DNA from: Strigops habroptila
Lineage: Eukaryota > Chordata > Aves > Psittaciformes > Psittacidae
DNA length: 64,000 nucleotides
NCBI RefSeq assembly: GCF_004027225.2
Contig: NC_044301.2
Location: forward strand, 20,950,023-21,014,022
Direction of reading: 5' to 3'
In this document: positions 16,476 to 59,935 of the stretch, piece by piece
How positions within the stretch are numbered: position 1 is the first letter of the stretch
Layout: every line of letters begins with the position of its first letter
Notes under the pieces: generated by a model
The model's input: only the letters and a program-made list of their open reading frames with translations
Database searches by the model: none
Told to the model about the DNA's origin: nothing
Translations under genes and position numbers: made by a program

Positions 16476-16504
16476 GTAAAAAAAAGCTTCATGGTTATGC
16501 TTGT

Positions 16505-27547: not shown

Positions 27548-29381
27548 TGTAATGGATGGGAACCTAGCTGTGAGTTGATTCCCTCTCATGACTGAGAACC
27601 ATAACAAAGGATGTTGTTTGCCACAGTGTATTCAGCAGAGTATATATGTTTGTGTTCATCATGACTGTTTGTCTGAAAGAGGCAGGAAAACACAGGTGTG
27701 CAGCTGTTCTATGACCTTCACACTTGGCCGCGCTGGGGTGCCTGGCCAATGCTCTGAGTGGACAAGGGTGAGATCATGAGAAACTGCACAGTCCCAGGAG
27801 TAAATGATTAGAGATCTGGCATAAAGCCGGTTGTTTTGATAAGGGTATAAAAGCGGGACCCTCTTGTGGCCATGAGAGAAGCCTCACCTATGGGTGGACA
27901 CACCGCGTAGGAATTTTCCCAATTACCTGAGACTCCTGGCATCGTCTGCAACGGGGCTTCCCAGCTGAAAGTGTGGGCCTGGATGATGATTCAGTGGTAA
28001 TTGGTGATGTATTTCTTCTTAATCTCTGTTCTTTCAATATGATAATGATTTAATGCATTGCTAACTCTCTCCGTTACTTTACTTATATACCTATATCTCT
28101 GGTTTGCTTTATTCTACTTATTCACTATATAGAGAGAGATATTTACCTAGTTCACATTAGTGTGCTTGCTTTAGTGTGCTTATTAACTTTAGCGTGCTTG
28201 TTTAATAAACTCTGCATATTATACAGCTAGTGTGTGGTCACTTTGTGGCGTACCCTGTCTGTCAGCAGAACATTTTGGCGTAGTTGGCAGGATACGAAAC
28301 AAAATGGCATTTTTTAAGATAAAGAAAAAGGTTCCTAAGACGGTGGAGCTGGATACCCCTGGCTGGGAACAATTACCTTATCGTAACATAGCTGCTGAAT
28401 GGTCGTGTTATGGTTTATGTGAGAATTGGAACTCCTGTTTGAATGAGGCAAACCCTCCTGATGTAGTTAAATGTTTGCAAAAAGTATCGGTAGAAAAAGG
28501 AGAGAAGTTAATTGCTCTGGGAAGATGGGGGTGGATTCTGCTGGCTGCATACCGAAAGCAGCATCAGCGGGGAGAGTGAATACAGAGGGAGAAGATGGAT
28601 TTGTAGAAACAAGTTTGTGAATTGCAGGGAAAAATAGTTATGTTACAATGCCAAAATCGATTACTAACTGATAAACTGGACACTTATCAAACGGTAGCAG
28701 AAAAAGAGGCTGTTCATTTTGCCCAGGATAAATATAGAAAAGGAAGAGGTCAAGTAAACCAGCAAAAAGTGCATGCAGTGATTGTGGAGGCAGGAAGGAA
28801 TTGGGACCCTGAGAAATGGGACGGAGATGTGTGGGATTCAACCGATGTGGATAGTAGTCCAGAGGGTGAGGTGTTTGTTGAAGCAAAGCCAATATTACAG
28901 AGAAAATTGGAACATGACCCTCTAGGTCATCCGTTTAGGCAGTACATTTTAGAAGATTTCACTGAACACAAAATTAATGACATTATGGACAGGTTCAAAC
29001 AAAAGCCGGGAGAATCCTAGCTGTCCTCATGTGCCTCATGACCCTTTGGGCAATGCCATTACCCTAGGAAGATATCTGAAAAGGAGTGACATCTCACTTG
29101 TGCGCTGGAGATGGAAGAGTGGCACCAGATCTTGGAGACAAGATAATTGCATCTGTAATGTGAATGAACCTTACCATCATAGCAAGTTCAGCATTTTCCT
29201 CAGGAGTACAGAGGCGGACAACCATTTTGTAAGAAAAACGCTACTAATAGTTGTTTGTACAACATCAAATGGATTAAGATGTAGAAATTATAGCTAATGC
29301 TAATGTTGTTGCTATCAAATGTTGTAACCCTACTAGTTCTTATATTCACTGTGCTGATAGTACTGAAAATGTATATAACCT
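27548..29381 (+). mobile_element. ERV family B, left half: 5' LTR plus part of internal region
   Basis: A 725-base LTR (27548-28272, TGTAATGG to AGAACA, AATAAA near 28204) is followed three bases later by a primer-binding site (28276-28293) and about 1.1 kb of decayed coding sequence. Two open pieces, 28304-28579 and 28622-29020, are lysine- and tryptophan-rich gag-like frames without a clear domain. A hydrophobic stretch near 29297-29380 could be a transmembrane tail. The element is cut at 29381 by family A copy E1. Its other end is found inverted at 43828-44719. The flank left of the LTR (CCCAT) does not match the outer flank of the other LTR. Confidence 0.8.
28276..28293 (+). other. Family B primer-binding site, tRNA-Ser type
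   Basis: TGGCGTAGTTGGCAGGAT is complementary to the 3' end of tRNA-Ser with one mismatch (family form TGGCGTAGTCGGCAGGAT as I recall it), and lies three bases after the LTR. Confidence 0.6.
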
Positions 29382-29948
29382 TGTCCTGGGTTCAGCTACA
29401 GCAGTCATTTTTCCTCCTTCTTAGTAGCTGGTGCAGTGCTGTGTTTTTGACTTTCAGCCTGGGAACAACATTGATAACACCGATGTTTTTAGTTGTTGCT
29501 AAGTCATGTTTACTCTAACCAAGGACTTTCTCAGTCTCATGCTTTGCCAGGGAGGAGGGGAAGCCAGGAGGAAGCAGAGACAGGACACCTGACCCAAACC
29601 AGCCAAAGGGGTATTCCATACCACAGCATGTCATGCCCAGTATAGAAACTGGGGGGAGTTACCCGGAAGGCCGAGATCGCTGCTCGGGTCGGGCTGGGTA
29701 TCGGTTGGCGGGTGGTGAGCAATTGTATCCTCTCCCCTTGTTATTTCCCTTATCATTATTATTATTAGTGGTGGTAGTAGTGGTTTTGTATTATACCTTA
29801 GTTACAGGACTGTTCTTATCTCAACCTGTGGGATTTACATTCTTTCGATTGTCCTCCCCATCCCTCCAGGAGCAGGGGGAGGAAGAAGGGGGGGAATGAG
29901 TGAGCGGCTGCATGGTTCTGAGTTACCGGCTGGGCTTAAACCATGACA
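29382..29948 (+). repeat. 5' LTR of E1
   Basis: 567 bases, TGTCCTGGG to CCATGACA, with left flank AACCT at 29377-29381. Confidence 0.9.
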
Positions 29949-29956
29949 GTTCTGTG

Positions 29957-29974
29957 TGGCGCCCAACATGCGGC
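29957..29974 (+). other. E1 primer-binding site, tRNA-Lys type
   Basis: TGGCGCCCAACATGCGGC differs at two positions from the tRNA-Lys1,2 site TGGCGCCCAACGTGGGGC, which copy C carries exactly. E2 has the same two changes. Confidence 0.7.
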
Positions 29975-30069
29975 TCGTAGGGTTGAGATAATGACAGATC
30001 TGACCAGAGTGTGTCTAATCATATTTGTGATAAGCATTCATTGTTTTGGATTAATAGTCACTCATCAAA

Positions 30070-30282
30070 ATGTTGATTTATTGGCTCTCAGAGATGTTGC
30101 GCTTGATCTCAGAGTTTCAGCATGTTGTACCTTACTTAGAGGCAGTATTTGCTGTTTCAGTGTTTATCGGCTGGGGGGCCTGGGCTAAGGTTCTTGTTTC
30201 ACTGTACTTCATGGTAATGACTTGTAATACAATAGACTCATTGATCATGAAATTGGTCTGGCTTCTGTTCCCGACGTGGTAA
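30070..30282 (+). CDS. Small hydrophobic leader ORF of ERV family A (E1)
   Basis: This 70-codon frame lies in the leader upstream of gag. It has a short amphipathic start and two hydrophobic stretches around VFAVSVFIGWGAWAKVLV and the following residues, so it looks like a small membrane protein. E2 keeps the same frame at full length (58273-58061) with scattered substitutions, and copy C keeps its first half before a deletion. A pyrimidine-rich tract ending in CTCCTCAG lies about 70 bases downstream at 30335-30355, so it could be a spliced leader exon. No known family was recognised, and function is unknown. Confidence 0.45.
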   Translation: MLIYWLSEMLRLISEFQHVVPYLEAVFAVSVFIGWGAWAKVLVSLYFMVMTCNTIDSLIMKLVWLLFPTW

Positions 30283-30309
30283 TCACCTCTATATTTTGGG
30301 AGGTATATA

Positions 30310-32112
30310 ATGGAATTTTTTAGCAATTACATATCTTTTTTTTTTTCTCCTCAGGAGGGTCAACCTGCGAAGAAGGCATTCCCTTACACCTCCTGCTCCC
30401 CCACCAGAGTGTTTACGGCAGCATTTGAGAGTTCTGAAGGTTTTGGATGGCCTGTGAATGCCCTTGAGACCTGCCTGCTGATTGTGCTAGGGATCAGCAT
30501 GTTGGCAAACATACGGAGTGTGTTTTACCCATGGCCATCCCGCCCTGGGAACACCCTATTTCGTCTGATCTTGAAAGTTAAGCAGTATCAGGTTCAAATC
30601 TGGTCTAGGGTTAGATGACAATATGGGAGGACCACCAAGAGATTTTCCCCGAGGCTGGACAGTCATGAGTGGCCGGGTGCATGGGATAGTATGGGCAAGT
30701 ATCTAGGCCAGTGGGCCCCTCCAGTGCTTTGGAACTTCACCACTGAACAAGTGCAACATCCGGAAAAACTAGTAAAACACCTAAACAAGGTGTGCTGTCA
30801 ACCTGGTTATACCAGAGAGGGACAAATCATGGCAACATGCTGGGGCTTGGTCTCCACCTACAGAGCCCTGCTCAACACTATCCAGCACCTTCAAAGGAAA
30901 AAAGATGTCTCTGGATCTGATGGCAAAGCAACAGACAACGCAGCTACTCCAACTCCAAGCACAGCAGCTACACCAACCCCAGTGACAAGCACAGCAGCTG
31001 CTCAAACTCCAACAGAAACAGACAACGCAGCTTCTCCAAGCACCACAGCTACACCAACCCCAGTAACAAGTACAGCAGCTACTCAAACCCTGACAGCAAC
31101 AGACAACACAGCTGTTAGTGTTACTCAACCCCCAAGCGCAACAGCTTCACCAACCCTGACAGCAGACACTGCAGCCACTCCAACCCCAGTGAAAGACACT
31201 GCAGCTAAACCAAATGGCCAATTTGTGACAATATCTGTTGCCCCTCTAAGCAAGGGGAAAAGCAAACGAGAGGCACAAAGAGCAACCCGTGCAGTGAAGA
31301 AAGATGAAGACCCAATGCACTTACTATGAGGGACGGCACCTGAACAAGAGTTATTACTACGTGAATCGGATGAAGACAAAGAAGAGGTGACTTCTCAACC
31401 CTGGAACTCGACCGAGCTGCAGAATATGCAAAAAGATTTCAGCCGTCTTCCAGGGGAGCACATCGTCACCCGGTTTCTCCGATGCTGGGACAATGAGGCC
31501 GACGGTCATGACCTAGAAGGTAGGGAAGCCAAGCAGCTGGGATCACTTGCTAGGGAAGGAGGAATTGACAAAGTGATTGCAAGAGAGAAAAGAGCCCTCA
31601 GCCTTTGGAGGCGGCTCTTGGCAGCTGTGAAGGAAAGGTTTCCCTACAAGGACAATGTTAGGAGTCGCTCAGCCAAGTGGACCACGATAAAGAGAGGCAT
31701 CCAGTCCCTGAGGGAATCAGCCATTCTAGAGATGATCTATCGTAGGCCGGATGCCAGGAATGCATCCATAGATCCAGATGAAGTCGAATGTACACGACCC
31801 ATGTGGCGGAAACTTACACAGAGTGCGCCATCATCATATGCCCACTCATTGGCATCAATGACCTGGAATGACCTGGCACCACCAACAGTGGATGAAGTGA
31901 CTCGTCAACTCCAAGAGTTCGAAGACAATCTCACCCCTTCCATCATTTCAGCTGTGAAAAAACTGTCCCAGGAGTTCAAACAATTGAGAGACAATTTATC
32001 CGATCTATCCAGCTCCCCACGTGTACCAACCCCTGTCTCAGCTATTAACAGAAGGCTCCCTACTGCCCGAGAGAGAAAATATAGGAGGTACATGCCACAG
32101 GCCACCCTATGA
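30310..32112 (+). pseudogene. Gag region of E1, broken
   Basis: Three consecutive open pieces are 30310-30618, 30691-31329 and 31387-32112. The first has a strongly hydrophobic segment (LLIVLGISMLANI). The second ends in Thr/Ala/Pro-rich tandem repeats (about 30940-31230) then a basic tail. The third, opening with a SQPWNS-like start, contains WNDLAPPTVDEVTRQL and basic residues and is the most gag-like. Stops at 30616-30618 and about 31327 separate them. In E2 the first two pieces are fused in one open frame, so the first break is specific to E1. Confidence 0.6.
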
Positions 32113-32139
32113 TTTTACCTGTGGGATCACGGGGAAGAC

Positions 32140-33354
32140 ATGAGAAAGTGGGATGGAAAATCTACCTCAGTTCTGGAGCAACGGGTGCGTGAACTGAAGA
32201 GGAGAACAGTGGTCAAGGATGATCCTCCCAGGAAAGCTACTGCTCCAGTCTCTGGTGAGCAGTTTCCCAGATGGACTGGAAGAACTGATTTTACTCCAGC
32301 TCCTGTGATAAGGAATACTAATCCCTTTCTACATGACATAAGTGGACAATCTTATAATTACTATTGGAGGGGCCCTGCCTCCAGCCAGGTGGAGGAGAGG
32401 GATAATCGGGTTTACTGGACTGTGTGGATCAGATGGCCTGGCACATCAGTCCCACAGAAGTATAAGGCTCTAGTAGATACCGGTGCACAGTGTACTCTGA
32501 TGCCATCAAGGTATCAAGGGGTGGAACCCATTTATATTTCTGGAGAGAAAGAAGGATCCCAAGAGTTGACTGTACTGGAAGCTGAAATCAGCCTGACTGG
32601 GAGGAAGTGGCAAAAGCACCCCATTGTTACTGGTCCAGGGGCTCCATGCATCCTTGGCATAGACTATCTCAGGAGAGGGGACTTCAAAGACCCAAAAGGG
32701 TATAGATGGGCTTTTGGTATCGCTGCCTTGGAGACAGAGGAAATTAAGCAGCTGTCCACCTTGCCCAGTCTCTCAGAGGATCCTTCTGTTGTGGGGTTGC
32801 TGAAGGTCGAAGAACAACAAGTGCCAATTGCGACCACAACAGTGCACCGGCGGCAATGTTGTACCAACCGAGACTCCCTGATTCCCATCCATAAGCTGAC
32901 CCGTAGCCAAGGAGTGATCAGCAGGACACACTCACCCTTTAATAGCCCCATATGGCCAGTGCAAAAGTCTGATGGAGGGTGGAGACTAACAGTAGACTAT
33001 CATGGTCTGAACGAAGTCACACCACCATTGAGTGCTGCCGTACCGGACATGCTAGAACTTCAGTATGAACTGGAGTCAAAGGCAGCCAAGGGGGATGCCA
33101 CAAGTTATATTGCCAATGCATTTTTCTCAATCCCTTTGGCAGCAGAGTGCAGGCCACACTTCTCTTTGACCTGGAGGGGCGTCCAGTACACTTGGAACCG
33201 ACTGCCCCGTGGGTGGAAAAACAGCCCTACGATCTGCCATGGATTGATCCAGACTGCACTGGAACAGGGGCAAGCTCCAGAACACCTGCAAAACAGTGAT
33301 GACATCATCGTGTGGGGTGATATAGCGGAAGAAGTTTTTGAGAAAGGGAGGTAA
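32140..33354 (+). CDS. Protease and partial reverse transcriptase frame of E1
   Basis: A 404-codon open frame holds an aspartic protease (active-site block LVDTGAQC near 32470) followed by reverse transcriptase fingers and palm (SPFNSPIWPVQK, LTVDYHGLNEVTPP, IANAFFSIPL). The catalytic box that should read YIDD is NSDD at 33292-33303, so the two Asp remain but the Tyr is lost. The frame ends at a TAA shared with A1; E2 has Lys there. RNase H and integrase follow in broken frames to 35466. Class III (ERV-L-like) by the RT blocks. Confidence 0.75.
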   Translation: MRKWDGKSTSVLEQRVRELKRRTVVKDDPPRKATAPVSGEQFPRWTGRTDFTPAPVIRNTNPFLHDISGQSYNYYWRGPASSQVEERDNRVYWTVWIRWPGTSVPQKYKALVDTGAQCTLMPSRYQGVEPIYISGEKEGSQELTVLEAEISLTGRKWQKHPIVTGPGAPCILGIDYLRRGDFKDPKGYRWAFGIAALETEEIKQLSTLPSLSEDPSVVGLLKVEEQQVPIATTTVHRRQCCTNRDSLIPIHKLTRSQGVISRTHSPFNSPIWPVQKSDGGWRLTVDYHGLNEVTPPLSAAVPDMLELQYELESKAAKGDATSYIANAFFSIPLAAECRPHFSLTWRGVQYTWNRLPRGWKNSPTICHGLIQTALEQGQAPEHLQNSDDIIVWGDIAEEVFEKGR

Positions 33355-35930
33355 ATAATCCAAATCCTGCTGAAGACTGGTTTTGCCATAAAACGGAGTA
33401 AGGTCAAGGGACCTGCACAGGAGATTCAGTTTTTGGGAATAAAATGGCAAGATGGATGTCGCCAGATCCCCACAGATGTAATCAACAAGATAACAGCAAT
33501 GTCTCCACCAACTAACAAGAAAGAAACACAAGCTTTCTTTGGAGTTGTGGGGTACTGGAGAATGCACATCCAAATTTACAGTCTGATTTTATGCCCTCTC
33601 TATCACATGATGTGGAAGAAGAATGATTTCAAATGGGGCCCTGAGCAACAACAAGCCTTTGAACAAATTAAACAAGAGAGAGTTCATGCAGTAGCCCTTG
33701 GACCAGTCCGGGCCGGGCCAGATGTGAAAAATGTTCTCTACACTGCAGCCGGGGAGAATGGTCCTACCTGGAGCCTCTGGCAGAAAGCTCCAGGGGAGTC
33801 TCGAGGTGGACCCCTCGGCTTTTGGAGTCAGGGGTACAGAGGATCCGAGGCCAGCCACACTCCCACTGAGAAAGAGATACTGGCAGCCTATGAAGGGGTT
33901 TGAGCTGCTTCAGAAGTGATTGGAACTGAAGCACAGCTCCTCCTGGCATCCTGGTTGCCTGTGCTGGGCTGGATGTTCAAGGGCAGAGTCTCCTCTACAC
34001 ATCATGCAACCGATGCTACATGGACTAAGTGGGCCACACTAATTACACAACAAGCTCGAATAGGAAATCCCAGTTGTCCAGGAATTCTAGAAGTCATCAT
34101 GGACTGGCCAGAGGGCAAAGATTTTGGAATGTCACCAGAGGAGGAGGTGATGCGTGCTGAAGAGGCCCCACCATATAATCAACTGTCAGAAAGTGGGAAG
34201 CAATATGCCTTGTTTACTGATGGGTCCTGCCATATTGTGTGAAAGTGTTCGGAGATGGAAGGCAGCTGTGTGGAGTCCCCTACAATAAGTGGCAGAAACT
34301 GCTGAAGGAGAGGGTGTGAATCGAGTCAGTTTGCAGAGGTGAAAGCCATCCAGCTGGCCTTGGACATTGCTGAATGAGAAACATGGCCAGTACTTTATAG
34401 TGGGGGTGGTTGCAGCAATGGAAGCAGAGCAACTGGCAACGCAGAGGTAAACCCATCTGGGCTGCTGCATTGTGGCAAGATATCGCTGCCTGGGTACAGA
34501 ACCTGGTGGTGAAGGCACGCCACGTAGATGCTCATGTACTCAAGAGTCTGGCCACTGAGGAACACCAGAACAACCACGAAGTGGATATAGCTGCTAAGAT
34601 TGGAGTGGCTCAGATGGATTTAAATTGGTAACATAAGGGTGAATTATTTTGAGCCCAGTGGGCCCATGACACCCCAAGCCATCAAGGCAGAGATGCAACA
34701 TATAGATGGGCTCGTGATCGAGAGGTGGACTTAACAATGGACGCTATTGCCCAGGTTATTCATGAATGTGAAATATGCTGCAATTAATCAAGCCAAGCGG
34801 TTAAAGCCTCTCTGGTATGGAGGACAATGGCTGAATAACAAATATGGGGCGGCCTGGCAGACTGAATATATATCAGACTTCCACCGACCTGCCAAGGCAA
34901 GCGCTATGTACTTACCATGGTGGAAACAACCACCGGATTGCCGGAAACATTCACTGTGCCCCACGCCTCTGCCCGGGACACTATTCTGGGCCTTGAGAAA
35001 CAAGTCTTGTGGCGACACGGCACCCCAGAGAGAACTGTGTCAGACAATGGGACTCATTTCCGGAACAACCTTATAGACACTTGGGCCAAAGAGCATAGGT
35101 TGAGTGGGTGTATCACATCCCCTACCATGCACCAGCCTCTGGGAAAATCAAACGGTACAATGGGCTCTTAAAAACCACACTGAGAGCAATGGGTGGTGGG
35201 ACTTTCAAACACTGGGATACACATTTACCAGAAGCCACCTGGTTGGTCAACACGAGGGGATCTGCCAACAGGGCTGGCCCAGCCCAATCAGAACTTTTAC
35301 TTACTGTAGAGGGGGATAATGTTCCTGTGGTGCACCTAAAGAATTTGTTGGGGAAGACAGTCTGGGTTATTCCTGCTTCAGGTAAAGGCAAACCCACTCG
35401 TGGGATTGCTTTTGCTCAGGGACCTGGATATACTTGGTGGGTAATGCGGGAAGATGGGGAAGTCTGATGTGTACCTCAAGGGGATTTAATTTTGGGGGAA
35501 AACAGCCAATGAACTGAATTGTATGCTGTTGCCTGCTCTATAACACTTTTATAGCCCACCAGCTAGATATCTTCGCGTTGCCAGCAACTGACCTTGACTT
35601 CCCTCCAGTCATCACCCCAACGAAGAATGAATTTTGATGAAACCAGACGAGTTCTGCAGTGACCAGACGAGTTCAGCGGTGTCCGCCGCTGGCAACAACC
35701 CAACACTACAAAGCGTCCCTCCTGCCCTGAAAGACTATTACAAGAGATGGAGCCTGACATCATGGACTGGATGAATTCAGCAACTTTATAGGGATTGGTC
35801 CTTGGATTAAGGAATGATATCTCTCTCTTTGTGTGTGGGTGTATATATATATATGAGACAAAAGTGATGGTATATTGAAAAGTGTGGGATCTGAGCATTT
35901 TGTGAATGGTATGGAATCAGGGGTGGATAC
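33355..35930 (+). pseudogene. RNase H and integrase remnants and 3' tail of E1
   Basis: RT connection, RNase H (YALFTDGSC) and integrase (SDNGTHF, GKGKPTRGIAFAQGPGYTWW) are readable in alternating frames with many stops. There is a small deletion in RNase H near 34397, and the third integrase catalytic residue is Lys. From 35467 the sequence is the family's non-coding tail with a TG/TA microsatellite near 35830. Confidence 0.75.
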
Positions 35931-36477
35931 TGTCCTGGGTTCAGCTGTAGCAGTAATTTTTTCTCCTTCTTAGTAGCTGGTGCAGTGCTGTGTTTTTGAC
36001 TTTCAGCCTGGGAACTTCACTGATAACACTGATGGTTTTAGTTGTTGCTAAGTAATATTTATTCCGACCAAGGACTTTCTCAGTCTCATGCTCTGCCAGG
36101 GAGGAGGGGAAGCCGGGAGGAAGCAGAGAGGCCAAAGGGGTATTCCATCCCACAGCATGTCATGCCCAGTATAGAAACTGGGGGGAGTTACCCAGAAGGC
36201 CCAGATCGCTGCTTGTGTCGGGCTGGGTATTGGTCGGCAGGTGGTGAGCAATTGTATTCCTTCCCCTTGCTATTATTTCCCTTATTATTATTATTGGTGG
36301 TAGTTGTAGTAGTTTCGTATTATACCTTAGATACTGGACTGTTCTTATCTCAACCCGTGGGAGTTACATTCTTTCGATTCTCCTCCCCATCTGTCCGGGA
36401 GCGGGGGGAGGAAGAAGAGGGGGAGTGAGTGAGCGGCTGCATGATTCTGAGTTACCGGCTGGTCTTAAACCATGACA
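35931..36477 (+). repeat. 3' LTR of E1
   Basis: 547 bases, TGTCCTGGG to CCATGACA. The right flank is AGTGT (36478-36482), unlike the left flank of the element. It lacks a block of about 20 bases present in other family A LTRs (near 36130). Confidence 0.9.
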
Positions 36478-36482
36478 AGTGT

Positions 36483-38220
36483 ATACTTTTGGGTCACCTT
36501 TAAGGGGTTTCGCTTAGCTAATCAGCTGTTTTGAAGAATATTAAGATTCTCTATGTGAAATAATTCACTATTAATGAAGACCTTCACTGGAGGAGAAGGA
36601 CAGGTTGAGAGCAGCATGGGAGCACTGTGCTTCATAGTAATGCTATCCTGAACTCCTGTGCCTGAAGATAAGTAGAGTTTGTCTTCTTTTCTCTCTTCTC
36701 CCCTACTTAACCTTAAAGTATTCTTCAGCAGGAGAGTATTACATGCTAATGCTTTGGGCTGCCTAGGAAAGGCATGTGACAGATGCTTGTTTTGCCGCCC
36801 CAGCTCAGTAAATTTCATTTTCTGGGTGGTTTGCTGATCCTAATAAACAAATAAACAAAACAAACTCTCTTAACTGTTGAAAGAGGAGGTTTTTAAGGGT
36901 AGGATGGGATGAGAAACAGAAAATGTGCTGCTTGCAGCAGGCTGTGATGCAAAGGGTTTCTCAGCGTGTGGGTTTTGAGTGGTATAGGCTGCACAAGCTG
37001 CCAACCTGTTTGACTTCCACCAGTCATTTTGGGGCAGATCTAGCTTTTGAGGGAATTTGTGCTAAGCAAATGTAACATGAAGCCCTGCTGCAGTTAGAAT
37101 GTGTAGCACTCGCTGCAGTGTGCTCTTTGGCCAGGGCTGTTAAGACCATTATTTCCAGGGGTTGTTAATTCAAAGCTTGCTTGTGCCAATCCCTGCCCCA
37201 GACAGGCTTCACTCTCATGTAGTGAGAGTGAAGAACTCTGCAGTGTTCATACTCACAGATGCAGTGCACAGTTAGGATTGGGTTTGGAAGTTAAATACTA
37301 GTTTATATGCTTTTTTAGAGGGCTTAATTATTAGCACATTCTTGGGAATGCTTTTAAATTGGTTTAAGGTTAGTGTTAATAGTTTTTGAGTCTTTGTGTC
37401 ACTCCTGAAAAAAATTTGTAAGAATTTAATGCTGCTGAATGGCTTCTGCACATTTCCCTAATGGGGTCACCTTCTCAAAGGTGCACAAATTGCTTGTTCC
37501 TGTTAGCTCCTACAAGTTGTTTAGTGTCACAGTTCCTTCCATTTCCATTTCTCTCACTGTGTTTTTGTGTCTTTATTTTGGGGTACAGGGGTGCTTGATG
37601 CTGTTGGTAAAGAGAAGAAGATATTTCCACGTTGCAAGCTAGGAGGTTCTGGTAAAAAACACTTCCTCCAAATAATGTCAGGAGGAGGGTTTTTTTTATC
37701 CGCTATTATACTTGTTACTGAAATAGGGGGAATGTTGTGGGGTTTAACTTATTTATACACACCCCACCCCAGTGCTACTTATGTTTAGTGTTCTCCTCTC
37801 TAATAAAATATGTGAAAATAAAAATGCTTGTAAAAAGATAAGTGTCAGGTAGGAAAGGGTGTTCTGGCAGTGTGGGAACCAATCTTGGAGCATCCTTGAG
37901 TTTTCTCACTCTGCTTCTGAGCAGAAACACCTGGAAGGTGCTGTTGTCTCCTCCAATTCCTGCTTCCAAATCTGTTTTATCTACTTTGTACATGTCAATG
38001 TCCCGTCTTGTGCAGGGGTATACATTAGACTCAAGTTTGTAAATCTGATAGCTACATAATGTAGAGTAACCAATAGATATATAGTTTTTTGTATTTTAAA
38101 AATATCCCTGGCAATTTGAAAAGATGGATGTAGAAGAAAAAAAAGTTATTCACCCTAATCAGCACCTGGTTGATGATACTTCCTGTGTATTGTTTCTGAA
38201 TATTTCCATGTTATTTACAG
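36483..38220 (+). other. Inverted FANCA intron sequence
   Basis: AT-rich unique sequence between E1 and the first inverted FANCA exon. FANCA exons 9-10 would be expected beyond E2 on the other strand. No exon was recognised here. Confidence 0.4.
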
Positions 38221-40659: not shown

Positions 40660-41029
40660 TGTAGGAGAGGATGGAAACTATTTGATTATTGCCAAAGAGA
40701 AGTAACTGCTTGGCTGGAGAAGAAAGAGTTAAAGAAGAAGCAAAGTACACTGTGTGATTAAGCAGAGCAACCCAGCTGGACAGGAGCAGGAGAACAGAAA
40801 GATAAGGAACTGGTTATTCTGGGACTGTTTGTGAAACGACGAAGAATGTTGGAAAAAACAAAACTGTAAACCAGGAACTAAACATGATGTGCTAAAACTA
40901 GCTTGGTATAAAAGGTAGAGCAATAGGCTAAAAATATCTTTTGCTAGAATGGTATAAAAGCTAGAGCAATAGGCAATAAAGTGATTTGCTGCATGAAGAC
41001 GCACTGAGTCCGTGCCGTTAATCTCCACA
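40660..41029 (+). mobile_element. Solo LTR of the 6-bp TSD family
   Basis: A 370-base LTR from TGTAGGAG to CTCCACA is flanked by perfect 6-base duplications GAAGCC (40654-40659 and 41030-41035). It has two TATAAAAG boxes near 40909 and 40952 in a locally duplicated stretch, then AATAAA at 40975-40980. The U5 end (CACTGAGTCCGTGCC) resembles the LTR in the SULT exon (GCTGAGTCTGTGTC), so both belong to one family. It lies in the inverted FANCA intron between exons 14 and 15. Confidence 0.85.
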
Positions 41030-48649: not shown

Positions 48650-48651
48650 AT

Positions 48652-49494
48652 CTAGTTTAAAGCTTTCCTGACCAGCCTGGCAAGCCTCCTACCAAAACAG
48701 CTCTTCCCCTTCTTTGTCAGACCAGCTCCACCAGCCTCCAGTAGATCTGGCCTCCCAAATGGAGCCCCATGTTCTAAATAGCCAAACCCCTGACTATGGC
48801 ACCAGCATTCTAACCATTTATTAACCTGCCAGACACGCCTAGCTTTTTTAAGGTCCTCCCCTTTGCCCTGGAGAATCGATGAAAAAACTATCTGAGCTCC
48901 AGAGCCCCTAACCACCTCTCCCAGGGCTCTGTAGTCCTTCTTAATGTTTTCCAGGCTACTGCTATCTATATCTCTAGCACCCACATGGACCACTAGGAGG
49001 GGGTAATAGTCAGCAGGACTTACTAGAGCAGGCAGCCTCTCAGCAACATCCCTGATCCGAGCCCCCGGCAGGCAACACACCTCCCTCGAGACTAGATCAG
49101 GCCGGCAGATGAGGGCCTCTGTGCCTTTCAAAGTAGAGTCCCCTACTACTATGACCCTCCTCTTTTTCCTGGAGGCACCAGTAGCGATCCTCTTTACTGG
49201 TGCATCAGCAGGGTGCTCATTAGGTGTGGTGGGTGCTTTCTCATTAGCCCCCTGCAGAACCGCGAAGCGGTTCTGGGTGGGGACATCAGATTTAGGAGGA
49301 AGCCCCTTGTCATTAATTGTCCTCTTCCTCCTTTTTTTGTTCGCTTTTCTCGTGACTAATTCCCAGCTTCCTGGGTTGCTGCTCTCCTTCCTTCCTATAT
49401 GAGCAGTGCTAGACGTTTGCAGCCCCTGTACAGCTTGGGCCTGGAGCAAGCAGCCCAGCTTCCTCTCAGCTTCCCTGGCATCTTTTAGCTCTCC
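48652..49494 (-). CDS. CR1 ORF1, 5'-truncated (SGNH-type esterase domain)
   Basis: The frame contains [16 protein letters not shown] and [11 protein letters not shown], the GDS and late blocks of the esterase-like domain found in CR1 ORF1, then ends three bases upstream of ORF2. The N-terminal part is missing through 5' truncation. By chance the frame continues open into E2 tail sequence to 49632, but that extension is not CR1. Confidence 0.8.
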
Positions 49495-49598
49495 GATATC
49501 TAGCTGGTGGGCTATAAAAGTGTTATAGAGCAGGCAACAGCATACAATTGAGTTCATTGGCTGTTTTCCCTCTAAATTAAATCCCCTTGAGATACACA

Positions 49599-50466
49599 TC
49601 AGACTTCCCCATCTTCCTGCATTACCCACCAAGTATATCCAGGTCCCTGAGCAAAAGCAATCCCACGAGTGGGCTTGCCTTTACCTGAAGCAGGAATAAC
49701 CCAGACTGTCTTCCCCAACAAATTCTTTAGGTGCACCACAGGAACTTTAGCCCCTTCTACAGTACGTAAAAGTTCTGGTTGGGCTGGGCCAGCCCTGTTG
49801 CCAAATCCCCTCGTGTTGACCAACCAGGTGGCTTTTGGTAAATGTGTATCCCAGTGTTTGAAAGTCCCACCACCCATTGCTCTCAGTGTGGTTTTTAAGA
49901 GCCCATTGTATCGTTCGATTTTCCCAGAGGCTGGTGCATGGTAGGGGATGTGATACACCCACTCAACCTATACTCTTTGGCCCAAGTGTCTATAAGGTTG
50001 TTCCGGAAATGAGTCCCATTGTCTGACTCAATTCTCTCTGGGGTGCTGTGTCACCACAAGACTTGTTTCTCAAGGCCCAGAATAGTGTTCCAGGCAGTGG
50101 CGTGGGGCACAGCATATGGTTCCAGCAATCCGGTGGTTGCTTCCACCATGGTAAGTACATAGCGCTTGGCTTGGCGGGTTGGTGGGAGCGTGATATAGTC
50201 AATCTGCCAGGCCTCCCCATACTTGTACTTCCTCCATACCAGAGAGGCTTTAACCACTTGGCTTGATTAATTGCAGCATATTTCACATTCATGAATAACC
50301 TGGGCAATAGCGTCCATTGTTAAAGTCCACCCCTCGATCACAAGCCCATCTATATGTTGCATCTCTGCCTTGATGGCCTGAGGTGTCATGGGACCACCGG
50401 GCTCAAAATAATTCACCCTTATGTTGCCAATCTAAGTCCATCTGAGCCACTTCAATCTTAGCAGCT
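49599..50466 (-). pseudogene. Integrase portion of E2
   Basis: Integrase core and C-terminal part (APASGKIERYNG with the catalytic Glu; GKGKPTRGIAFAQGPGYTWW), broken by a one-base deletion near 49970, a deletion near 50240 and stops. It continues across copy C into RNase H at 53872. Confidence 0.75.
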
Positions 50467-51042
50467 TGTCCTGGGTTCAGCTATAGCAGTCATTTTTCTC
50501 CTGCTTAGTAGCTGGTGCAGTGCTGTGTTTTTTAACTTTCAGCCTGGGAACAACGCTGATAACACCGATGTTTTTAGTTGTTGCTAAGTAATGTTTATTC
50601 CAACCAAGGACTTTCTCAGTCTCATGCTTTGCCAGGGAGGAGGGGAAGCCGGGAGGAAGCAGAGACAGGACACCTGACCCAAACTAGCCAAAGGGGTATT
50701 CCATACCACAGCACGTCATGCCCAGTATATAAACCGGGGGGAGTTACCCGGAAGGCCCAGATCACTGCTCCGGTCGGGCTGGGTATCGGTCGGCGGGTGG
50801 TGAGCAATTGTATCCTCTCCCCTTGTTATTTCACTAATCGTTATTATCATTGGTGGTAGCAGTAGTGGTTTTGTGTTATACCTTAGTTGCGGGACTGCTC
50901 TTATCTCAACCCGTGGGAGTTACATTCTTCCCATTCTCCTCCCCATCCCTCCGGGAGCGGGGGGAGGAAGAAGGGGGGGGAGGGGGGGAGTGAGCGAGCG
51001 GCTGTGTGGTTCTGAGTTACCGGCTGGGCTCAAACCACGACA
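50467..51042 (+). repeat. 5' LTR of copy C
   Basis: 576 bases, TGTCCTGGG to CCACGACA, with TATATAAA near 50726. Confidence 0.92.
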
Positions 51043-51050
51043 GTTCTTTT

Positions 51051-51068
51051 TGGCGCCCAACGTGGGGC
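51051..51068 (+). other. Copy C primer-binding site, tRNA-Lys1,2
   Basis: TGGCGCCCAACGTGGGGC is an exact 18-base match to the site used by viruses primed with tRNA-Lys1,2, eight bases after the LTR. Confidence 0.85.
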
Positions 51069-51276
51069 ACGAAAGGTTGAGATAACGACAGATCTGACCA
51101 GAGTGTGTTTAATCATATTTGTGATAAGCACTCATTGTTACTACTCGTCACAATGGTGATTATTTGGCTCTCAGACGTGTTGCGCTTGATCTCAGAGTTT
51201 CAGCATGTTGTACCTTACTTACAGCCACTATTTGCTGTTTTAGCGTTTATCGGCGCAGCTCCTCCTGGCACCCCGG

Positions 51277-52866
51277 TTGCCTGTGCTGGGCTGGATGTTC
51301 AAAGGCAGGGTCTCCTCTACACATCATGCAACTGATGCTACATGGAGTAAGTGGGCCGCACTAATTACACAACGAGCTCGAATAGGAAATCCCAGTCGTC
51401 CAGGAATTCTAGAAGTCATCATGGACTGGCCAGAGGGCAAAGATTTTGGGATGTCACCAGAAGAGGAGGTGATGTGTGCTGAAGAGGCCCCACCATATAA
51501 TGATCTATCAGAGAGTGAAAAGCAATATGCCTTGTTTACTGATGGGTCCTGCTGTATTGTGGGAAAGCATCAGAGATGGAAGGCAGCTGTGTGGAGTCCC
51601 CTGAGACAAGTTGCAGAAACTGCTGAGGGAGAGGGTGAATCAAGTCAATTTGCAGAGGTGAAAGCCATCCAGCTGGCCTTGGACATTGCTGAACGAGAAA
51701 AATGGCCAGTACTTTATCTCTATACTGACTCATGGATGGTGGCAAATGCCCTGTGGGGGTGGTTGCAGCAATGGAAGCAGAGCAACTGGCAACGCAGAAG
51801 TAAACCCATCTGGGCTGCTGCATTGTGGCAAGATATCGCTGCTCGGGTGCAGAACCTGGTGGTGAAGGTACGCCACGTAGATGCTCATGTGCCCAAGAGT
51901 CGGGCCACTGAGGAACACCAGAACAACCAGCAAGTGGATAAAGCTGCTAAGATTAAAGTGGCTCAGATGGACTTGGATTGGCAACATAAGGGTGAATTAT
52001 TTTTAGCCCGGTGGGCCCATGACACCTCAGGCCATCAAGGCAGAGATGCAACATATAGATGGGCTTGTGATCGAGGGGTGGACTTAACGATGGACACTAT
52101 TGCCCAGGTTATTCATGAATGTGAAACATGTGCTGCAATTAAGCAAGCCAAGCAGTTAAAGCCTCTCTGGTATGGAGGACGATGGCTGAAGTACAAGTAT
52201 GGGGAGGCCTGGCAGATTGACTATATCACACTCCCACCAACCCGCCAGGGCAAGCGCTATGTGCTTACCATGGTGGAAGCAACCACCGGCTGGCTGGAAA
52301 CATACGCTGTGTCCCATGCCACTGCCCGGAACACTATCCTGGGCCTTGAGAAACAAGTCTTGTGGCGACACGGCACCCCAGAGAGAATTGAGTCAGACAA
52401 TGGGACTCATTTCCGGAACAACCTCATAGACACTTGGGCCAAAGAGCATGGCATTGAGTGGGTATACCACATCCCCTACCATGCACCAGCCTCTGGGAAA
52501 ATCGAACGGTACAATGGGCTGTTAAAAACTACACTGAGAGCAATGGGTGGTGGGACTTTCAAACACTGGGATACACATTTACCAAAAGCCACCTGGTTGG
52601 TCAACACGAGGGGATCTGCCAACAGGGCTGGCCCAGCCCAATCAGAACTTTTACGTACTGCAGAGGGGGATAAAGTTCCTGTGGTGCACATAAAGAATTT
52701 GTTGGGGAAGACAGTCTGGGTTATTCCTGCTTCAGGTAAAGGCAAACCCACTCGTGGGGTTGCTTTTGCTCAGGGACCTGGATATACTTGGTGGGTAATG
52801 CGGGAAGATGGGGAAGTCCGATGTGTACCTCAAGGGGATTTGATTTTGGGGGAAAACAGCCAATGA
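51277..52866 (+). CDS. RNase H and integrase frame of copy C, open
   Basis: A 529-codon frame. RNase H carries its acidic residues in YALFTDGSC, EVKAIQLAL, LYTDSW and HVDAH. Integrase has the zinc-binding His/Cys set (HDTSGH, CETC) and a complete catalytic triad: Asp in IDYITLP, Asp in SDNGTHF and, 35 residues later, Glu in GKIERYNG, the usual DD35E spacing. It ends with a family-typical C-terminal domain and TGA. The start Met is only where the frame opens; in a full element this is part of pol. Upstream RT is deleted. Confidence 0.88.
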   Translation: MPVLGWMFKGRVSSTHHATDATWSKWAALITQRARIGNPSRPGILEVIMDWPEGKDFGMSPEEEVMCAEEAPPYNDLSESEKQYALFTDGSCCIVGKHQRWKAAVWSPLRQVAETAEGEGESSQFAEVKAIQLALDIAEREKWPVLYLYTDSWMVANALWGWLQQWKQSNWQRRSKPIWAAALWQDIAARVQNLVVKVRHVDAHVPKSRATEEHQNNQQVDKAAKIKVAQMDLDWQHKGELFLARWAHDTSGHQGRDATYRWACDRGVDLTMDTIAQVIHECETCAAIKQAKQLKPLWYGGRWLKYKYGEAWQIDYITLPPTRQGKRYVLTMVEATTGWLETYAVSHATARNTILGLEKQVLWRHGTPERIESDNGTHFRNNLIDTWAKEHGIEWVYHIPYHAPASGKIERYNGLLKTTLRAMGGGTFKHWDTHLPKATWLVNTRGSANRAGPAQSELLRTAEGDKVPVVHIKNLLGKTVWVIPASGKGKPTRGVAFAQGPGYTWWVMREDGEVRCVPQGDLILGENSQ

Positions 52867-53294
52867 ACTCAATTGTACGCTGTTGCCTGCTCTATAACAC
52901 TTTTATAGCCCACCAGCTAGATATCTTCAGGTCACCAGCCATTGACCCTGACTTCCCTCCGATCATCACCTCAACAAAGAATGAATTTTGAGGAAACCAG
53001 ACGAGCTCAGCAGTGACCAGATGAGTTTGGCGGTATCATCAGCAGGCAACAACCCAACACTATGTACCGTCCCTCCTGCCCTGAAAGACTATTACAAGAG
53101 ATGGAGCCTGACATCATGGACTGGATGAGTTCAGCAATTTTACAGGGATTGGTCCATGGACTAGGGAACGATATCTTTCTCTGTGTGTGGGTGTGGGTGT
53201 ATATATATGTGTATATATGGGACAGGGGTGATGGTGTGCTGAGAGATGTGGGATCTGAGCATGACGTGAATGGTATGGAATAAGGGGTGGATAC

Positions 53295-53871
53295 TGTCCT
53301 GGGTTCAGCTATAGCAGTCATTTTTCTCCTGCTTAGTAGCTGGTGCAGTGCTGTGTTTTTTAACTTTCAGCCTGGGAACAACGCTGATAACACTGATGTT
53401 TTTAGTTGTTGCTAAGTAATGTTTATTCCAACCAAGGACTTTCTCAGTCTCATGCTTTGCCAGGGAGGAGGGGAAGCCGGGAGGAAGCAGAGACAGGACA
53501 CCTGACCCAAACTAGCCAAAGGGGTATTCCATACCACAGCACGTCATGCCCAGTATATAAACCGGGGGGAGTTACCCGGAAGGCCCAGATCACTGCTCGG
53601 GTCGGGCTGGGTATCGGTCGGCGGGTGGTGAGCAATTGTATCCTCTCCCCTTGTTATTTCACTAATCGTTATTATCATTGGTGGTAGCAGTAGTGGTTTT
53701 GTATGATACCTTAGTTGCGGGACTGCTCTTATCTCAACCCGTGGGAGTTACATTCTTCCCATTCTCCTCCCCATCCCTCCGGGAGCGGGGGGAGGAAGAA
53801 GTTGGGGGGGGGGGGGGAGTGAGCGAGTGGCTGTGTGGTTCTGAGTTACCGGCTGGTCTCAAACCACGACA
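53295..53871 (+). repeat. 3' LTR of copy C
   Basis: 577 bases, nearly identical to the 5' LTR of the same copy. Confidence 0.92.
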
Positions 53872-56800
53872 CAGCTTTATCCATTTGTTGGTTGTTCTGG
53901 TGTTCCTCAGTGGCCCGACTCTTGGGCACATGAGCATCTACGTGGCGTACCTTCACCACCAGTTTCTGTACCCGGGCAGCAATATCTTGCCACAATGCAG
54001 CAGCCCAGATGGGTTTACCTCTGCGTTGCCAGTTGCTCTGCTTCCATTGCTGCAACCACCCCCACAGGGCATTTGACACCATCCATGAGTCAGTATAAAG
54101 TACTGGCCATTTTTCTCGTTCAGCAATGTCCAAGGCCAGCTGGACGGCTTTCACCTCTGCAAACTGACTCGATTCACCCTCTCCTTCAGCACTTTCTTCC
54201 ACTTGTCGTAGGGGACTCCATACAGCTGCCTTCCATCTCTGAACACTTTCCTACAATATGGCAGGACCCATCAGTAAACAAGACATATTGCTTCTCACTT
54301 TCTGACAGTTCATTATATGGTGGACCCACATGAACATGCATCACCTCCTCCTCTGGTGACATTCCAAAATCTTTGCCCTCTGGCCAGTCCATGATGACTT
54401 CTAGAATTATTGGACTCTGCGCTTGAACATCCAGCCCAGCACAGGCAACCAGGATGCCAGGAGGAGCTGTGCTTCAGTGCCAATCACTTCTGAAGCAGCT
54501 CAAACCCCTTCATAGGCTGCCAGTATCTCTTTCTCAGTGGAAGTGTAGCTGGCCTTGGATCCTCTGTATCTCTGACTCCAAAAGCCGAGGGGTTGACCTC
54601 AAGTCTCCCCTGGAGCTTTCTGCCAGAGGCTCCAGGTAGGACCATTCTCCCCGGCTGCAGTGTAGAGCACATTTTTCACATCTGGCCCGGCCCGGACTGG
54701 TCCAAGGGCTACTGCATGAACTCTCTCTTGTTTAATTTGTTCAAAGGCTTGTTGTTGCTCAGGGCCCCATTTGAAATCATTCTTCTTCCACATCATGTGA
54801 TAGAGAGGGCTTACAATCAGACTGTAAATTGGGATGTGCATTCTCCAGAACCCCACAACACCTAAGAAAGCTTGTGTTTCTTTCTTCTTAGTTGGTGGAG
54901 ACATTGCTGTTATCTTGTTGATCACATCTGTGGGGATCTGGCGACATCCATCTTGCCATTTTATTCCCAAAAATTGAATCTCCTGTGCAGGTCCCTTGAC
55001 CTTACTCTGTTTTATGGCAAAACCAGCCTTCAGCAGGATTTGGATTATCTTCCTCCCTTTCTCAAAAACTTCTTCCGCTGTATCACCCCACACGATGATG
55101 TCATCAATGTATTGCAGGTGTTCTGGAGCTTGCCCCTGTTCCAGTGCAGTCTGGATCAATCCATGGCAGATGGTAGGGCTGTGTTTCCACCCCTGGGGCA
55201 GTCAGTTCCAAGTGTACTGGACGCCCCTCCAAGTCAAAGAGAACTGTGGCCTGCACTCTGCTGCCAAAGGGATTGAGAAAAATGCATTGGCAATATCAGT
55301 TGTGGCATCCCCCTTGTCTGCCTTTGACTCCAGTTCATATTGAAGTTCTAGGATGTCCTGTACGGCAGCACTCAACGGTGGTGTGACTTCATTCAGGCCA
55401 CGATAGTCTACTGTTAGTCTCCACTCTCCATCAGACTTTTGCACTGGCCATATGGGGCTATTAAAGGGTGAGCGGGTCCTGCTGATCACTCCTTGGCTAC
55501 GGGTCAGCTTATGGATGGGAATCAGGGAGTCTCGGTTGGTACAATATTGCCACCGGTGCACTGTTGTGGTCGCAATTGGCACTTGTTGTTCTTCGACCTT
55601 CAGCAACCCCACAACAGAAGGATCCTCTGAGAGACCGGGTAAGGTGGACAGCTGCTTAATTTCCTCTGTCTCCAAGGCAGTGACACCAAAAGCCCATCAT
55701 TACCCTTTTGGGTCTTTGAAGTCCCCTCTCCTGAGATAGTCTATGCCAAGGATGCATGGAGCCCCTGGACCAGTCACAATGGGGTGCTTTTGCCACTTCC
55801 TCCCAGTCAGGCTGATTTCAGCCTCCAGTACAGTCAACTCTTGGGATCCTCCTGTCACTCCAGAAATATAAATGGGTTTCACCCCTTGATACCTTGATGG
55901 CATCAGAGTACACTGTGCACCGGTATCTACTAGAGCCTTATACTTCTGTGGGACTGATGTGCCAGGCCATCTGATCCACACAGTCCAGTAAACCCGATTG
56001 TCCCTCTTCTCCACCTGGCTGGAGGCAGGGCCCCTCCAATAGTAATTATAAGATGGTTCACTTATGTCTTGTAGAAAGGCATTAGTATCCCTTATCACAG
56101 GAGCTGGAGTAAAATCAGCTCTTCCACTCCATCTGGGAAACTGCTCACCAGAGACTGGAGCAGCAACTTCCATGGGAGGATCATCCTTGACCGTTTTTCT
56201 CTTCAGTTCATGCACCCGTTCCTCCAGAACCGAGGTAGGTTTTCCATCCCACTTTCTCATGTCTTCCCCGTGATCCCACAGGTAAAATCATAGGGTGGCC
56301 TGTGGCATGTACCTCATATATTTTCTCTCTCGGGCAGTAGGGCGCATTCCTTTAATAGTTCAGACATGGGTTGGTACATGTGGGGAGCTGGATAGCTTGT
56401 ATAAATTGTCTCTCAATTGTTTGAACTCCTGGGACAGTTTTTTCACAGCTGAAATGATGGAAGGGGTGAGACTGACTTCGAACTCTTGGAGTTGACGAGT
56501 CACTTCATCCACTGTTGGTGGTGCTAGGTCATTCCAGGTCATTGATGCCAATGAGTGGGCATTTCATGATGGTGCACTCTGTGTAAGTTTCCACCACATG
56601 GGTCGTGTACATTCGACTTCATCTGAATCTATGGATGCTTTCCTGGCATCCGGCCTATGATAGATCATCTCTAGAATGGCTGATTCCCTCAGGGACTGGA
56701 TGCCTTTCTCTATCGTGGTCCACTTTGCTGAGCAAGTCCTAACATCGTCCTTGTAGGGAAACCTTTCCTTCACAGCTGCCAGGAGCCGCCTCCAAAGACT

Positions 56801-57013
56801 GAGGGCTCGCTTCTCTCTTGCAATCTGTTTGTCAATTCCTCCTTCCCTAGCAAGTGATCCCAGCTGCTTGGCTTCCCTACCTTCTAGTTCGTGACCATCG
56901 GCCCCATTGTCCCAGCATTGGAGCAACCAGGTGACGATGTGCTCCCCTGGAAGATGGGTGAAATCTTTTTGCATATTCCACAGGTCAGTCGAGTTCCGGG
57001 GTTGAGAAGTCAC
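53872..57013 (-). pseudogene. Gag, protease, RT and RNase H of E2, broken
   Basis: Minus-strand pieces: gag 57013-56564 and 56551-56360, protease 56260-55700 (LVDTGAQC), RT 55675-55202 and 55159-54599 (YIDD intact near 55100, with Lys where A1 and E1 have a stop), RNase H 54392-53872 with stops. The frames are closer to intact than those of E1 or A1 in the RT region. Confidence 0.75.
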
Positions 57014-57074
57014 CCACGTAGTAAGTGCATTGGTCTTTACCTTTCTTCACTGCACGGGTTGCTCTTTGTTCCTC

Positions 57075-57890
57075 TCATTCGCTTTTCCCCTTGCTTACAG
57101 GGGCAACAGATATTGTCACAAATTGGCCATTTGGTTTAGCTGCAGTGTTTGTCACTGTGGTTGGAGTGGCTGCAGTGTCTGCTGTCAGGGTTGGTGAAGC
57201 TGTTGCGCTTGGGGGTTGAGTAACACTAACAGCTGTGTTGTCTGTTGCTGTCAGGGTTTGAGTAGCTGCTGTACTTGTTACTGGGGTTGGTATAGCTGTG
57301 GTGCTTGGAGAAGCTGCGTTGTCTGTTTCTGTTGGAGTTTGAGTAGCTGCTGTACTTGTCACTGGGGTTGGTGCAGCTGCTGTGCTTGGAGTTGGAGTAG
57401 CTGCGTTGTCTGTTGCTTTGCCATCAGATCCAGAGACATCTTTTTTCTTTTGAAGGTGCTGGATAGTGTTGAGCAGGGCTCTGTAGGCGTAGGCCAAGCC
57501 CCAGCACGTTGCTATGATTTGTCCCTCTCTGGTATAACCAGGTTGACAGCACACCTCGTTTAGGTGTTTTACTAGTTTTTCCGGATGTTGCACTTGTTCA
57601 GGGGTGAAGTTCCAAAGCATTAGAGGGGCCCACTGGCTTAGATACTTGCCCATACTATCCCACACACCCTGCCACTCATGACTGTCCAGCCTCAGGGAAA
57701 ATCTCTTGGTGGTCCTCCTATATCGTCGTCTAACCCTAGACCAGATTTGAACCTGATATTGCTTAACTTTCGAGATCAGACGAAATAGGGTGTTCCCAGG
57801 GCGGGATGGCCATGGGTAAAACACACTCCGTATGTTTGCCAACATGCTGATCCCCAGCACAATCAGCAGGCAGGTTTCAAGGGTATTCAA
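57075..57890 (-). CDS. Membrane-segment and Thr/Ala/Pro-repeat ORF of family A (E2)
   Basis: A 271-codon open frame upstream of gag. A hydrophobic segment near the start (LLIVLGISMLANI) is followed by an Arg-rich stretch, a folded-looking middle (GQIIATCWGLAYAYRALLN) and about 100 residues of tandem Thr/Ala/Pro repeats built on TPTPVTSTAATQT. E1 has the same frame broken once. Layout suggests a membrane-anchored, mucin-like or matrix-like protein, perhaps the N-terminal part of Gag. No family was recognised. Confidence 0.5.
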   Translation of the reverse strand: MNTLETCLLIVLGISMLANIRSVFYPWPSRPGNTLFRLISKVKQYQVQIWSRVRRRYRRTTKRFSLRLDSHEWQGVWDSMGKYLSQWAPLMLWNFTPEQVQHPEKLVKHLNEVCCQPGYTREGQIIATCWGLAYAYRALLNTIQHLQKKKDVSGSDGKATDNAATPTPSTAAAPTPVTSTAATQTPTETDNAASPSTTAIPTPVTSTAATQTLTATDNTAVSVTQPPSATASPTLTADTAATPTTVTNTAAKPNGQFVTISVAPVSKGKSE

Positions 57891-58060
57891 AGGCCATCCA
57901 AAACCTTTAGAACTCTCAAATGCTGCTGCAAATAGCCTGGTGGGGGAGCAGGGGGTGTAAGGGAATGCCTCCTTTGTAGGTTGACCCCCCTGAGGAGAAA
58001 AATAAAAGATATGTAATTGCTAAAAAATTCCATTATATACCTCCCAAAATATAGAGGTGA

Positions 58061-58273
58061 TTACCACGTGGGGAACACAAGCCAGACCAGTTTCATGATC
58101 AATGAGTGTATTTTATTACAAGTCATTAACATGAAGTACAGTGAAACAAGAACTTTAGCCCAGGCCCCCCAGCCGATAAACACTAAAACAGCAAATACTG
58201 CCTCTAAGTAAGGTATGACATGCTTAAACTCTGAGATCAAGCGCAAAAATTCTGATAGCCAATAAATCAACAT
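58061..58273 (-). CDS. Small hydrophobic leader ORF of ERV family A (E2)
   Basis: A 70-codon frame, the counterpart of 30070-30282 in E1, with the same length, same ends and about a dozen amino-acid changes, mostly conservative, in the hydrophobic stretches. Upstream is the primer site; downstream is a pyrimidine tract. Function is unknown. Confidence 0.45.
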   Translation of the reverse strand: MLIYWLSEFLRLISEFKHVIPYLEAVFAVLVFIGWGAWAKVLVSLYFMLMTCNKIHSLIMKLVWLVFPTW

Positions 58274-58368
58274 TGTGAGGAGTGACTATTAATCCAAAAC
58301 AATGAATGCTTACCACAAATACGATTAGACACACTCTGGTCAGATCTGTCGTTATCTCAACCCTACGA

Positions 58369-58386
58369 GCCGCATGTTGGGCGCCA
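58369..58386 (-). other. E2 primer-binding site, tRNA-Lys type
   Basis: Reads TGGCGCCCAACATGCGGC on minus, the same two-base variant as E1, placed eight bases from the LTR. Confidence 0.7.
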
Positions 58387-58394
58387 CACAGAAC

Positions 58395-58961
58395 TGTCAT
58401 GGTTTAAGCCCAGCCGGTAACTCGGAACCACACAGTCGCTCGCTCACTCCCCCCCTTCTTCCTCCCCCCGCTCCCGGAGGGATGGGGAGGAGAATTACAA
58501 CAATGTAACTCCCATGGATTGAGATAAGAGCAGTCCAGTAACTAAGGTATAATACAAAACCACTACTACCACCACTAATAATAATAATGATAAGGGAAAT
58601 AACAAGAGGAGAGGATACAATTGCTCACCACCTGCTGACCGATACCCAGCCAGACCCGAGCAGCTATCTCGGCCTTCCGGGTAACTCCCCCTGGTTTATG
58701 TACTGGGCATGACTTGCTGTGGTATGGAATACCCCTTTGGCCTGTTTGGGTCAGGTGTCCTGTCTCTGCTTCCTCCTGGCTTCCCCTCCTCCCTGGCAAA
58801 GCATGAGACTGAGAAAGTCCTTGGTCGGAGTAAACATTACTTAGCAACAACTAAAAACATCGGTGTTATCAGCATGGTTCCCAGTCTCAAAGTCAAAAAC
58901 ACAGCACTGCGCCAGCTACTAAGAAGGAGAAAAAATGACTGCTACAGGTGAACCCAGTACA
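58395..58961 (-). repeat. 5' LTR of E2
   Basis: 567 bases, equal in length to the E1 5' LTR. The outer edge is CCCAGTACA (one change from CCCAGGACA), followed by flank ACACT. Confidence 0.9.
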
Positions 58962-59309
58962 ACACTAATAAAAATACCTCTTAAAAAACCTCATTTAATA
59001 CAATTTTCAGACACATAACTGCAAGTCAGTCAGTGGCAGTGCAAGCTGCACAAACGTGAAGGTCAAATGAAGAGCAGGTTAACAGACTCCTGTCTGACTG
59101 CCAACAGGCTGCTTCTCTTCCTCCAAAATCCCCCTAGTCCTGCATTTGGAAGTGTTATTTTTTAAGTACCAAAATAAGGGCCACCTGAGATGGGACTCAT
59201 ACATATTAAATAATAAAGCATTTCTTACAGCTTTCCCTTTTTAGAAGCACTCCCTGAGGTCCGTAAGGCATCCCTCTGTCTACAGACAATGCTTCCTGCG
59301 AGACACAGG

Positions 59310-59930: not shown

Positions 59931-59935
59931 ACAGG

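Follow-up and report, generated by a model that had tools for sequence, protein, structure and literature searches.

Endogenous retroviruses (ERVs) accumulate on the bird W chromosome, and it is difficult to demonstrate from individual cases whether they actively rearrange it. A stretch of 64,000 nucleotides from the kakapo, Strigops habroptila (NC_044301.2, positions 20,950,023 to 21,014,022; hereafter the window), raises the question whether two such elements have inverted part of the gene FANCA. The window sits on C25, a 37.4-Mb ERV-rich contig of the assembly that we read as W; the counterpart of this locus is present on C26, a 101.9-Mb contig of the same assembly that we read as Z. We concluded that two family A proviruses in opposite orientation very probably recombined by a single crossover and thereby inverted about 8 kb of W-linked FANCA.

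Related elements in opposite orientation were found at both breakpoints, as is characteristic of ectopic inversions mediated by transposable elements. At the left breakpoint, E1 (29382-36477, plus strand) is a family A ERV with long terminal repeats (LTRs) at 29382-29948 and 35931-36477 and with reverse transcriptase and RNase H matches inside. At the right breakpoint, E2 (44720-58961, minus strand) belongs to the same family, has its LTRs at 58395-58961 and 44720-45282, and contains a nested ERV and a CR1-like long interspersed nuclear element (LINE). Both elements start with TG and finish with CA.

The five bases on either side of each element were read directly on the plus strand, and their exchange between the two elements, another characteristic of such inversions, is an observation. 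AACCT to the left of E1 (29377-29381) is the reverse complement of AGGTT to the left of E2 (44715-44719), and AGTGT to the right of E1 (36478-36482) is likewise that of ACACT to the right of E2 (58962-58966). We assign AACCT and AGGTT to a progenitor provirus P1, as its left and its second, inverted target duplication, and AGTGT and ACACT to a progenitor P2, as its inner and outer duplication. The first-pass annotation, made from the letters of the window, had given the coordinates of both elements and the four unmatched flanks exactly to the base, and had paired left with left and right with right; its estimate of about one in a million for two fixed 5-base matches arising by chance was recomputed as 4^-10 (~1e-6). 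The three family A insertions that it had used as controls do have matching duplications, CAGCA (26581-27148), CAGCT (50467-53871) and ACAGG, the last provided that the LTR of the third control ends at 59930. With merely 10 matching bases in total, one could still suppose that the matches are coincidental and that E1 and E2 are simple insertions at the breakpoints of an older inversion. Given the chance calculated above and, decisively, the adjacency of the exchanged flanks at both unoccupied insertion sites described below, we regard this as hardly conceivable.

The window was compared with 100 kb of the Z contig (C26 2250001-2350000), which covered it from 3275 on. The unique blocks 3275-27380 and 58946-64000 were reversed relative to Z, whereas the block 36478-43828 was direct with Z (C26 2291024-2298132) and thus opposite to the blocks flanking it. 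An order opposite to that on the homologous chromosome, as TE-mediated (transposable element-mediated) inversion entails, was in this way observed directly. The right-breakpoint edge of the direct block, at 36478, is the base right after E1; Z homology stops at 43828, where an ERV of family B starts, and family B then runs to E2. The inverted segment between E1 and E2 (36478-44719, plus strand) has 8,242 bases, composed of 36478-43827, which is common to Z, and 43828-44719, which is family B. A 46-base microinversion at 27387-27432 was the sole other exception in orientation. Z-W identity was 86-89% in seven blocks and 80-92% over longer blocks. A Pfam search of 58967-64000 in six frames gave no match, so that the content of this part is known solely from the Z alignment; the following 10 kb to the right of the window (C25:21014023-21024022) is N throughout.

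The Z copy is a firmer basis for the inversion than the flanks alone. It also retains the site at which P2 would have inserted. There the Z reads ...TTTTTATT AGTGT ATACTTC..., with both flanks adjacent around one AGTGT. When the right flank of E2 was reverse-complemented and placed next to that of E1, keeping a single AGTGT, the resulting 80 bases aligned to Z without a gap and were identical at 75 of 80 positions (5 mismatches). It follows from this gap-free alignment that the P2 flanks, now 22 kb apart, were once adjacent.

The P1 site is made up of the two left flanks, one from E1 and one from E2, and both lie inside family B. Family B sequence was not found in the compared 100 kb of Z, and the P1 site was therefore judged on paralogous B loci. 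The 167 bases to the left of E2 had 33 genomic matches, self included, from which 11 other B loci were extracted. The joined 120-base site was uninterrupted in 10 of these 11 (115-120 bases, 90-96%), and in the eleventh, L028, it was interrupted at a different position. Two pairs among the loci are near-copies (L023/L024, 99.7%; L025/L026, 99.9%), so that the 10 uninterrupted loci amount to 8 distinct ones. As the site is continuous in other B loci, its two flanks were also once adjacent. A single target copy with adjacent flanks on uninverted sequence was thus observed directly for both sites, on Z for P2 and in the B loci for P1. These sites, together with the order on Z and its edge exactly at the boundary of E1, bear out the prediction of the first-pass annotation that the 8.2 kb between the elements would prove inverted relative to Z.

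How could this arrangement have arisen? P1 would have inserted on the plus strand at AACCT, within an older family B ERV on W, and P2 on the minus strand at AGTGT/ACACT within FANCA on W. A single crossover between them, that is non-allelic homologous recombination within W, would then have inverted the DNA in between and left E1 and E2, each with one target duplication from each progenitor. We infer a homologous crossover as the mode of joining. At each junction the LTR is complete to its end, the breakpoint falls immediately beyond it, and the target duplications are present without any base lost. This makes it very unlikely that breakage followed by end joining, or template switching, inverted the segment, with the ERVs at its ends by chance or as templates; the microinversion and a run of 115 unmatched bases beside a neighbouring deletion do suggest that other repair was also active at the locus. 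Aberrant transposition is a process of DNA transposons and would not be expected when retroviruses integrate. It was the alternative weighed for the transposon Galileo, which generated the inversion 2z3 of Drosophila buzzatii (PMC2775673). Exchanged duplications, intact LTR ends and the absence of target loss point to a crossover between two elements in inverted orientation, an outcome described for Galileo (PMC2775673). The likeness to 2z3 extends to opposite related elements at the breakpoints, exchanged duplications, single target copies on the uninverted chromosome and later nested insertions (PMC2775673). Galileo 2z3 differs in being a polymorphic inversion caused by a DNA transposon, for which chimeric elements were demonstrated (PMC2775673), whereas the present case involves retroviral proviruses and 8 kb on W, and the chimerism of E1 and E2 is only predicted.

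Several points weigh against an inversion of the chromosome by crossover. The most direct is that the chromosome might be uninverted and the assembler might have crossed between the opposite P1 and P2, which would leave the same flanks, order, family B split and FANCA orientation. Such a switch is favoured by the abundance of family A (7109 first-look candidates genome-wide, 40 of them scored) and by the length of E2, 14.2 kb, set against the 15-kb and 30-kb PacBio libraries used for the kakapo assembly (PMC9903828). On the other hand, E1 and E2 are 88-95% identical by BLAST block and 87-98.5% per 200 bases, and their longest common exact run is 142 bases; in the absence of any longer exact run a mix-up of the copies by the assembler is unlikely, and we consider a switch improbable.

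The remaining points concern traces of the crossover itself. If E1 and E2 were hybrids, a crossed pairing would be expected, of the E1 5' LTR with the E2 3' LTR and of the E1 3' LTR with the E2 5' LTR; the first-pass annotation had proposed locating the crossover by aligning the halves of both elements to relatives. The E1 5' LTR was closest to its predicted partner, at 92.5%, the highest of six pairings. The E1 3' LTR, in contrast, had 87.9% identity with its predicted partner and a higher identity, 89.9%, with the E1 5' LTR; informative LTR sites numbered 7 for the predicted pairing versus 5 and 5 for the alternatives, a weak difference; and in a tree that combined the four LTRs with five further ones of the window, 4 of the 6 inner branches were open. 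Sliding E1-E2 identity (200 bases), compared with that to the family A copy A0 and to the nested element, revealed no switch. The crossed pairing was therefore not shown with any strength, and no crossover point was located. Genome-wide, among the matches listed, the E1 5' LTR has many relatives at 93-94%, a higher identity than it has with either LTR of E2. Uniquely shared states, with the five other LTRs as reference, were 4 versus 2 and 3, several of them at CpG, and were discarded as a second proof for being too weak.

LTR divergence gave no usable dates either. By the Kimura two-parameter (K2P) distance it was 0.027 for B, 0.079 for the predicted P1 pair and 0.133 for the predicted P2 pair, with the other E1/E2 pairings at 0.089-0.139 and the Z-W host mismatch at 0.08-0.10. 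P1 lies inside B, yet its LTRs differ more than those of B, and as these clocks contradict the order of nesting, LTR dating was abandoned. Three processes may each have a share in the conflict: CpG decay, conversion that acted among the family A copies, and conversion of one B LTR by the other.

The orientation of FANCA agrees with an inversion by P1-P2 crossover. Between E1 and E2 its N-terminal matches are on the plus strand, at 38222-38332, 39266-39355, 39743-39886, 40448-40567 and 42623-42697, corresponding to human FANCA residues 299-512, and no FANCA match was obtained on the three minus frames there. Two of these five stretches are convincing singly (5.4e-8 and 0.015); the other three (43, 6.5 and 5.4) were accepted because of the rising order, the Pfam whole-protein score of 6.2e-32 and the Z copy. 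The third and fourth stretches contain stops on W, which the Z copy lacks. At 13000-22500, Pfam found the FANCA C-terminal domain on the minus strand and weak C2H2 zinc-finger matches on the plus strand, the latter below the Pfam cut-off on W and above it on Z; the zinc-finger gene is presumably ZNF276. A PDB search with the three minus frames of 15000-29381 gave no FANCA match, though Pfam finds the C-terminal domain there. On Z, all FANCA domain matches were on the plus strand in protein order, and the minus frames of the three 10-kb pieces searched yielded none.

Family B is split as an inversion would split it. Its 5' LTR (27548-28272) and the interior to the left of the point where P1 inserted (28273-29381) are on the plus strand, whereas the interior right of this point (44553-44719), identified by comparison with B loci, and the 3' LTR (43828-44552) are on the minus strand, inverted away. 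Direct matches to other B loci cover the last 368 bases of the left interior; for the preceding part the B-locus flanks examined gave no match, except for 76 bases in L027. The first-pass annotation had held that the inversion independently explains both this split and FANCA on the plus strand. Both do follow from the inversion; neither is independent of an assembly switch.

The two B LTRs are 97.4% identical, and the best of 18 other B LTRs reaches only 93.5% to either, a pattern compatible with a single provirus, with sibling proviruses or with conversion at a later time. The outer flank of the 3' LTR, TATGC in B orientation, does not match CCCAT at 27543-27547, and the B duplications thus failed to provide a separate check on the inversion. 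Among the 18 other B LTR loci, 9 had exact 5-base duplications, 4 matched at four of five bases and 5 were proviral or truncated ends with one host flank. Compared with these, the mismatch indicates that B itself was rearranged, and it speaks neither for nor against the inversion between E1 and E2. The non-matching B flanks sit where W lacks 12.25 kb of FANCA, and the 115 unmatched bases adjoin this deletion. Tentatively, and with somewhat less than even confidence, we suggest that ERVs remodelled W-linked FANCA repeatedly: B x B recombination or aberrant B integration would have deleted the 12.25 kb, P1 would have entered the resulting B, P1 x P2 recombination would have inverted the next exons, and the B LTRs, by then inverted repeats, would have been homogenized by gene conversion. 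If so, ERV-ERV recombination would actively drive the decay of W genes and would be no bystander.

We take FANCA to lie on avian chromosome 11. In parrots this chromosome is fused to Z and W, forming neo-sex chromosomes (PMC8854603), and the 86-89% identity of the seven blocks compares with a Z-W similarity of ~86% in that stratum (PMC8854603). Same-locus Z and W copies at ~86% identity and an ERV-rich W are expected of this neo-W stratum, and both were observed here. The same study explains exon losses in parrots by recombination between copies of CR1; it treats the stratum as a whole, and the text examined mentions neither FANCA nor an ERV-mediated W inversion (PMC8854603). An ERV-rich W was also reported in a study of avian W ERV accumulation that included the kakapo among six species; its main text does not contain the word inversion, and ectopic recombination and rearrangement occur once each, in the reference list (PMC8310711). 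Transposable elements have been implicated as hotspots of bird inversions (PMC6523648), and the wording of exchanged or swapped target site duplications occurs in Drosophila papers (PMC2775673, PMC3355041). In the literature on ERVs, inversion, the W chromosome and non-allelic homologous recombination, subscription papers lying outside the search, we found no account of this inversion. We regard it as a new instance of a known mechanism, on what is most likely the avian neo-W of the kakapo.

Since neither the family A insertions nor B are present on Z at this locus, the inversion most likely came after Z-W recombination had ended, and probably did not cause that cessation. The locus offers one event that can be read base by base, with Z as internal control, and that shows the two insertion sites, the exchange of flanks and the exons that were inverted; tallying exchanged target duplications across the entire W could measure how frequent such events are. 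Among the matches listed, with queries taken from C25 itself, 37 of 40 for the family B LTR and 34 of 42 for the family A LTR were on C25. On this contig the near-copies L023/L024 and L025/L026 are in opposite orientation, ~16 and 52 kb apart, and alike at 99.7% and 99.9% over 3.1 kb; they are inverted duplications and possibly W palindromes. L025 and L026 also have B LTRs that face one another across 74 bases.

Within E2, a younger family A element (50467-53871, plus strand) is bounded by the matching CAGCT duplications and has LTRs that are 98.6% alike. The nested LINE (45648-49494, minus strand) has endonuclease and reverse transcriptase matches and a 967-codon open frame at 45746-48649; the name CR1 is inferred, the search having been made without a repeat library. 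Elsewhere in the window, a family A element without its 5' part occupies 21460-25448, and ~133 bases of Z sequence are absent at the same place. Inside the inverted segment, an LTR-like insertion of 370 bases (40660-41029) with a 6-base duplication, GAAGCC, is absent from Z at this locus; among the matches listed it had at least 38 at 94-98%, 30 of the 38 on C25.
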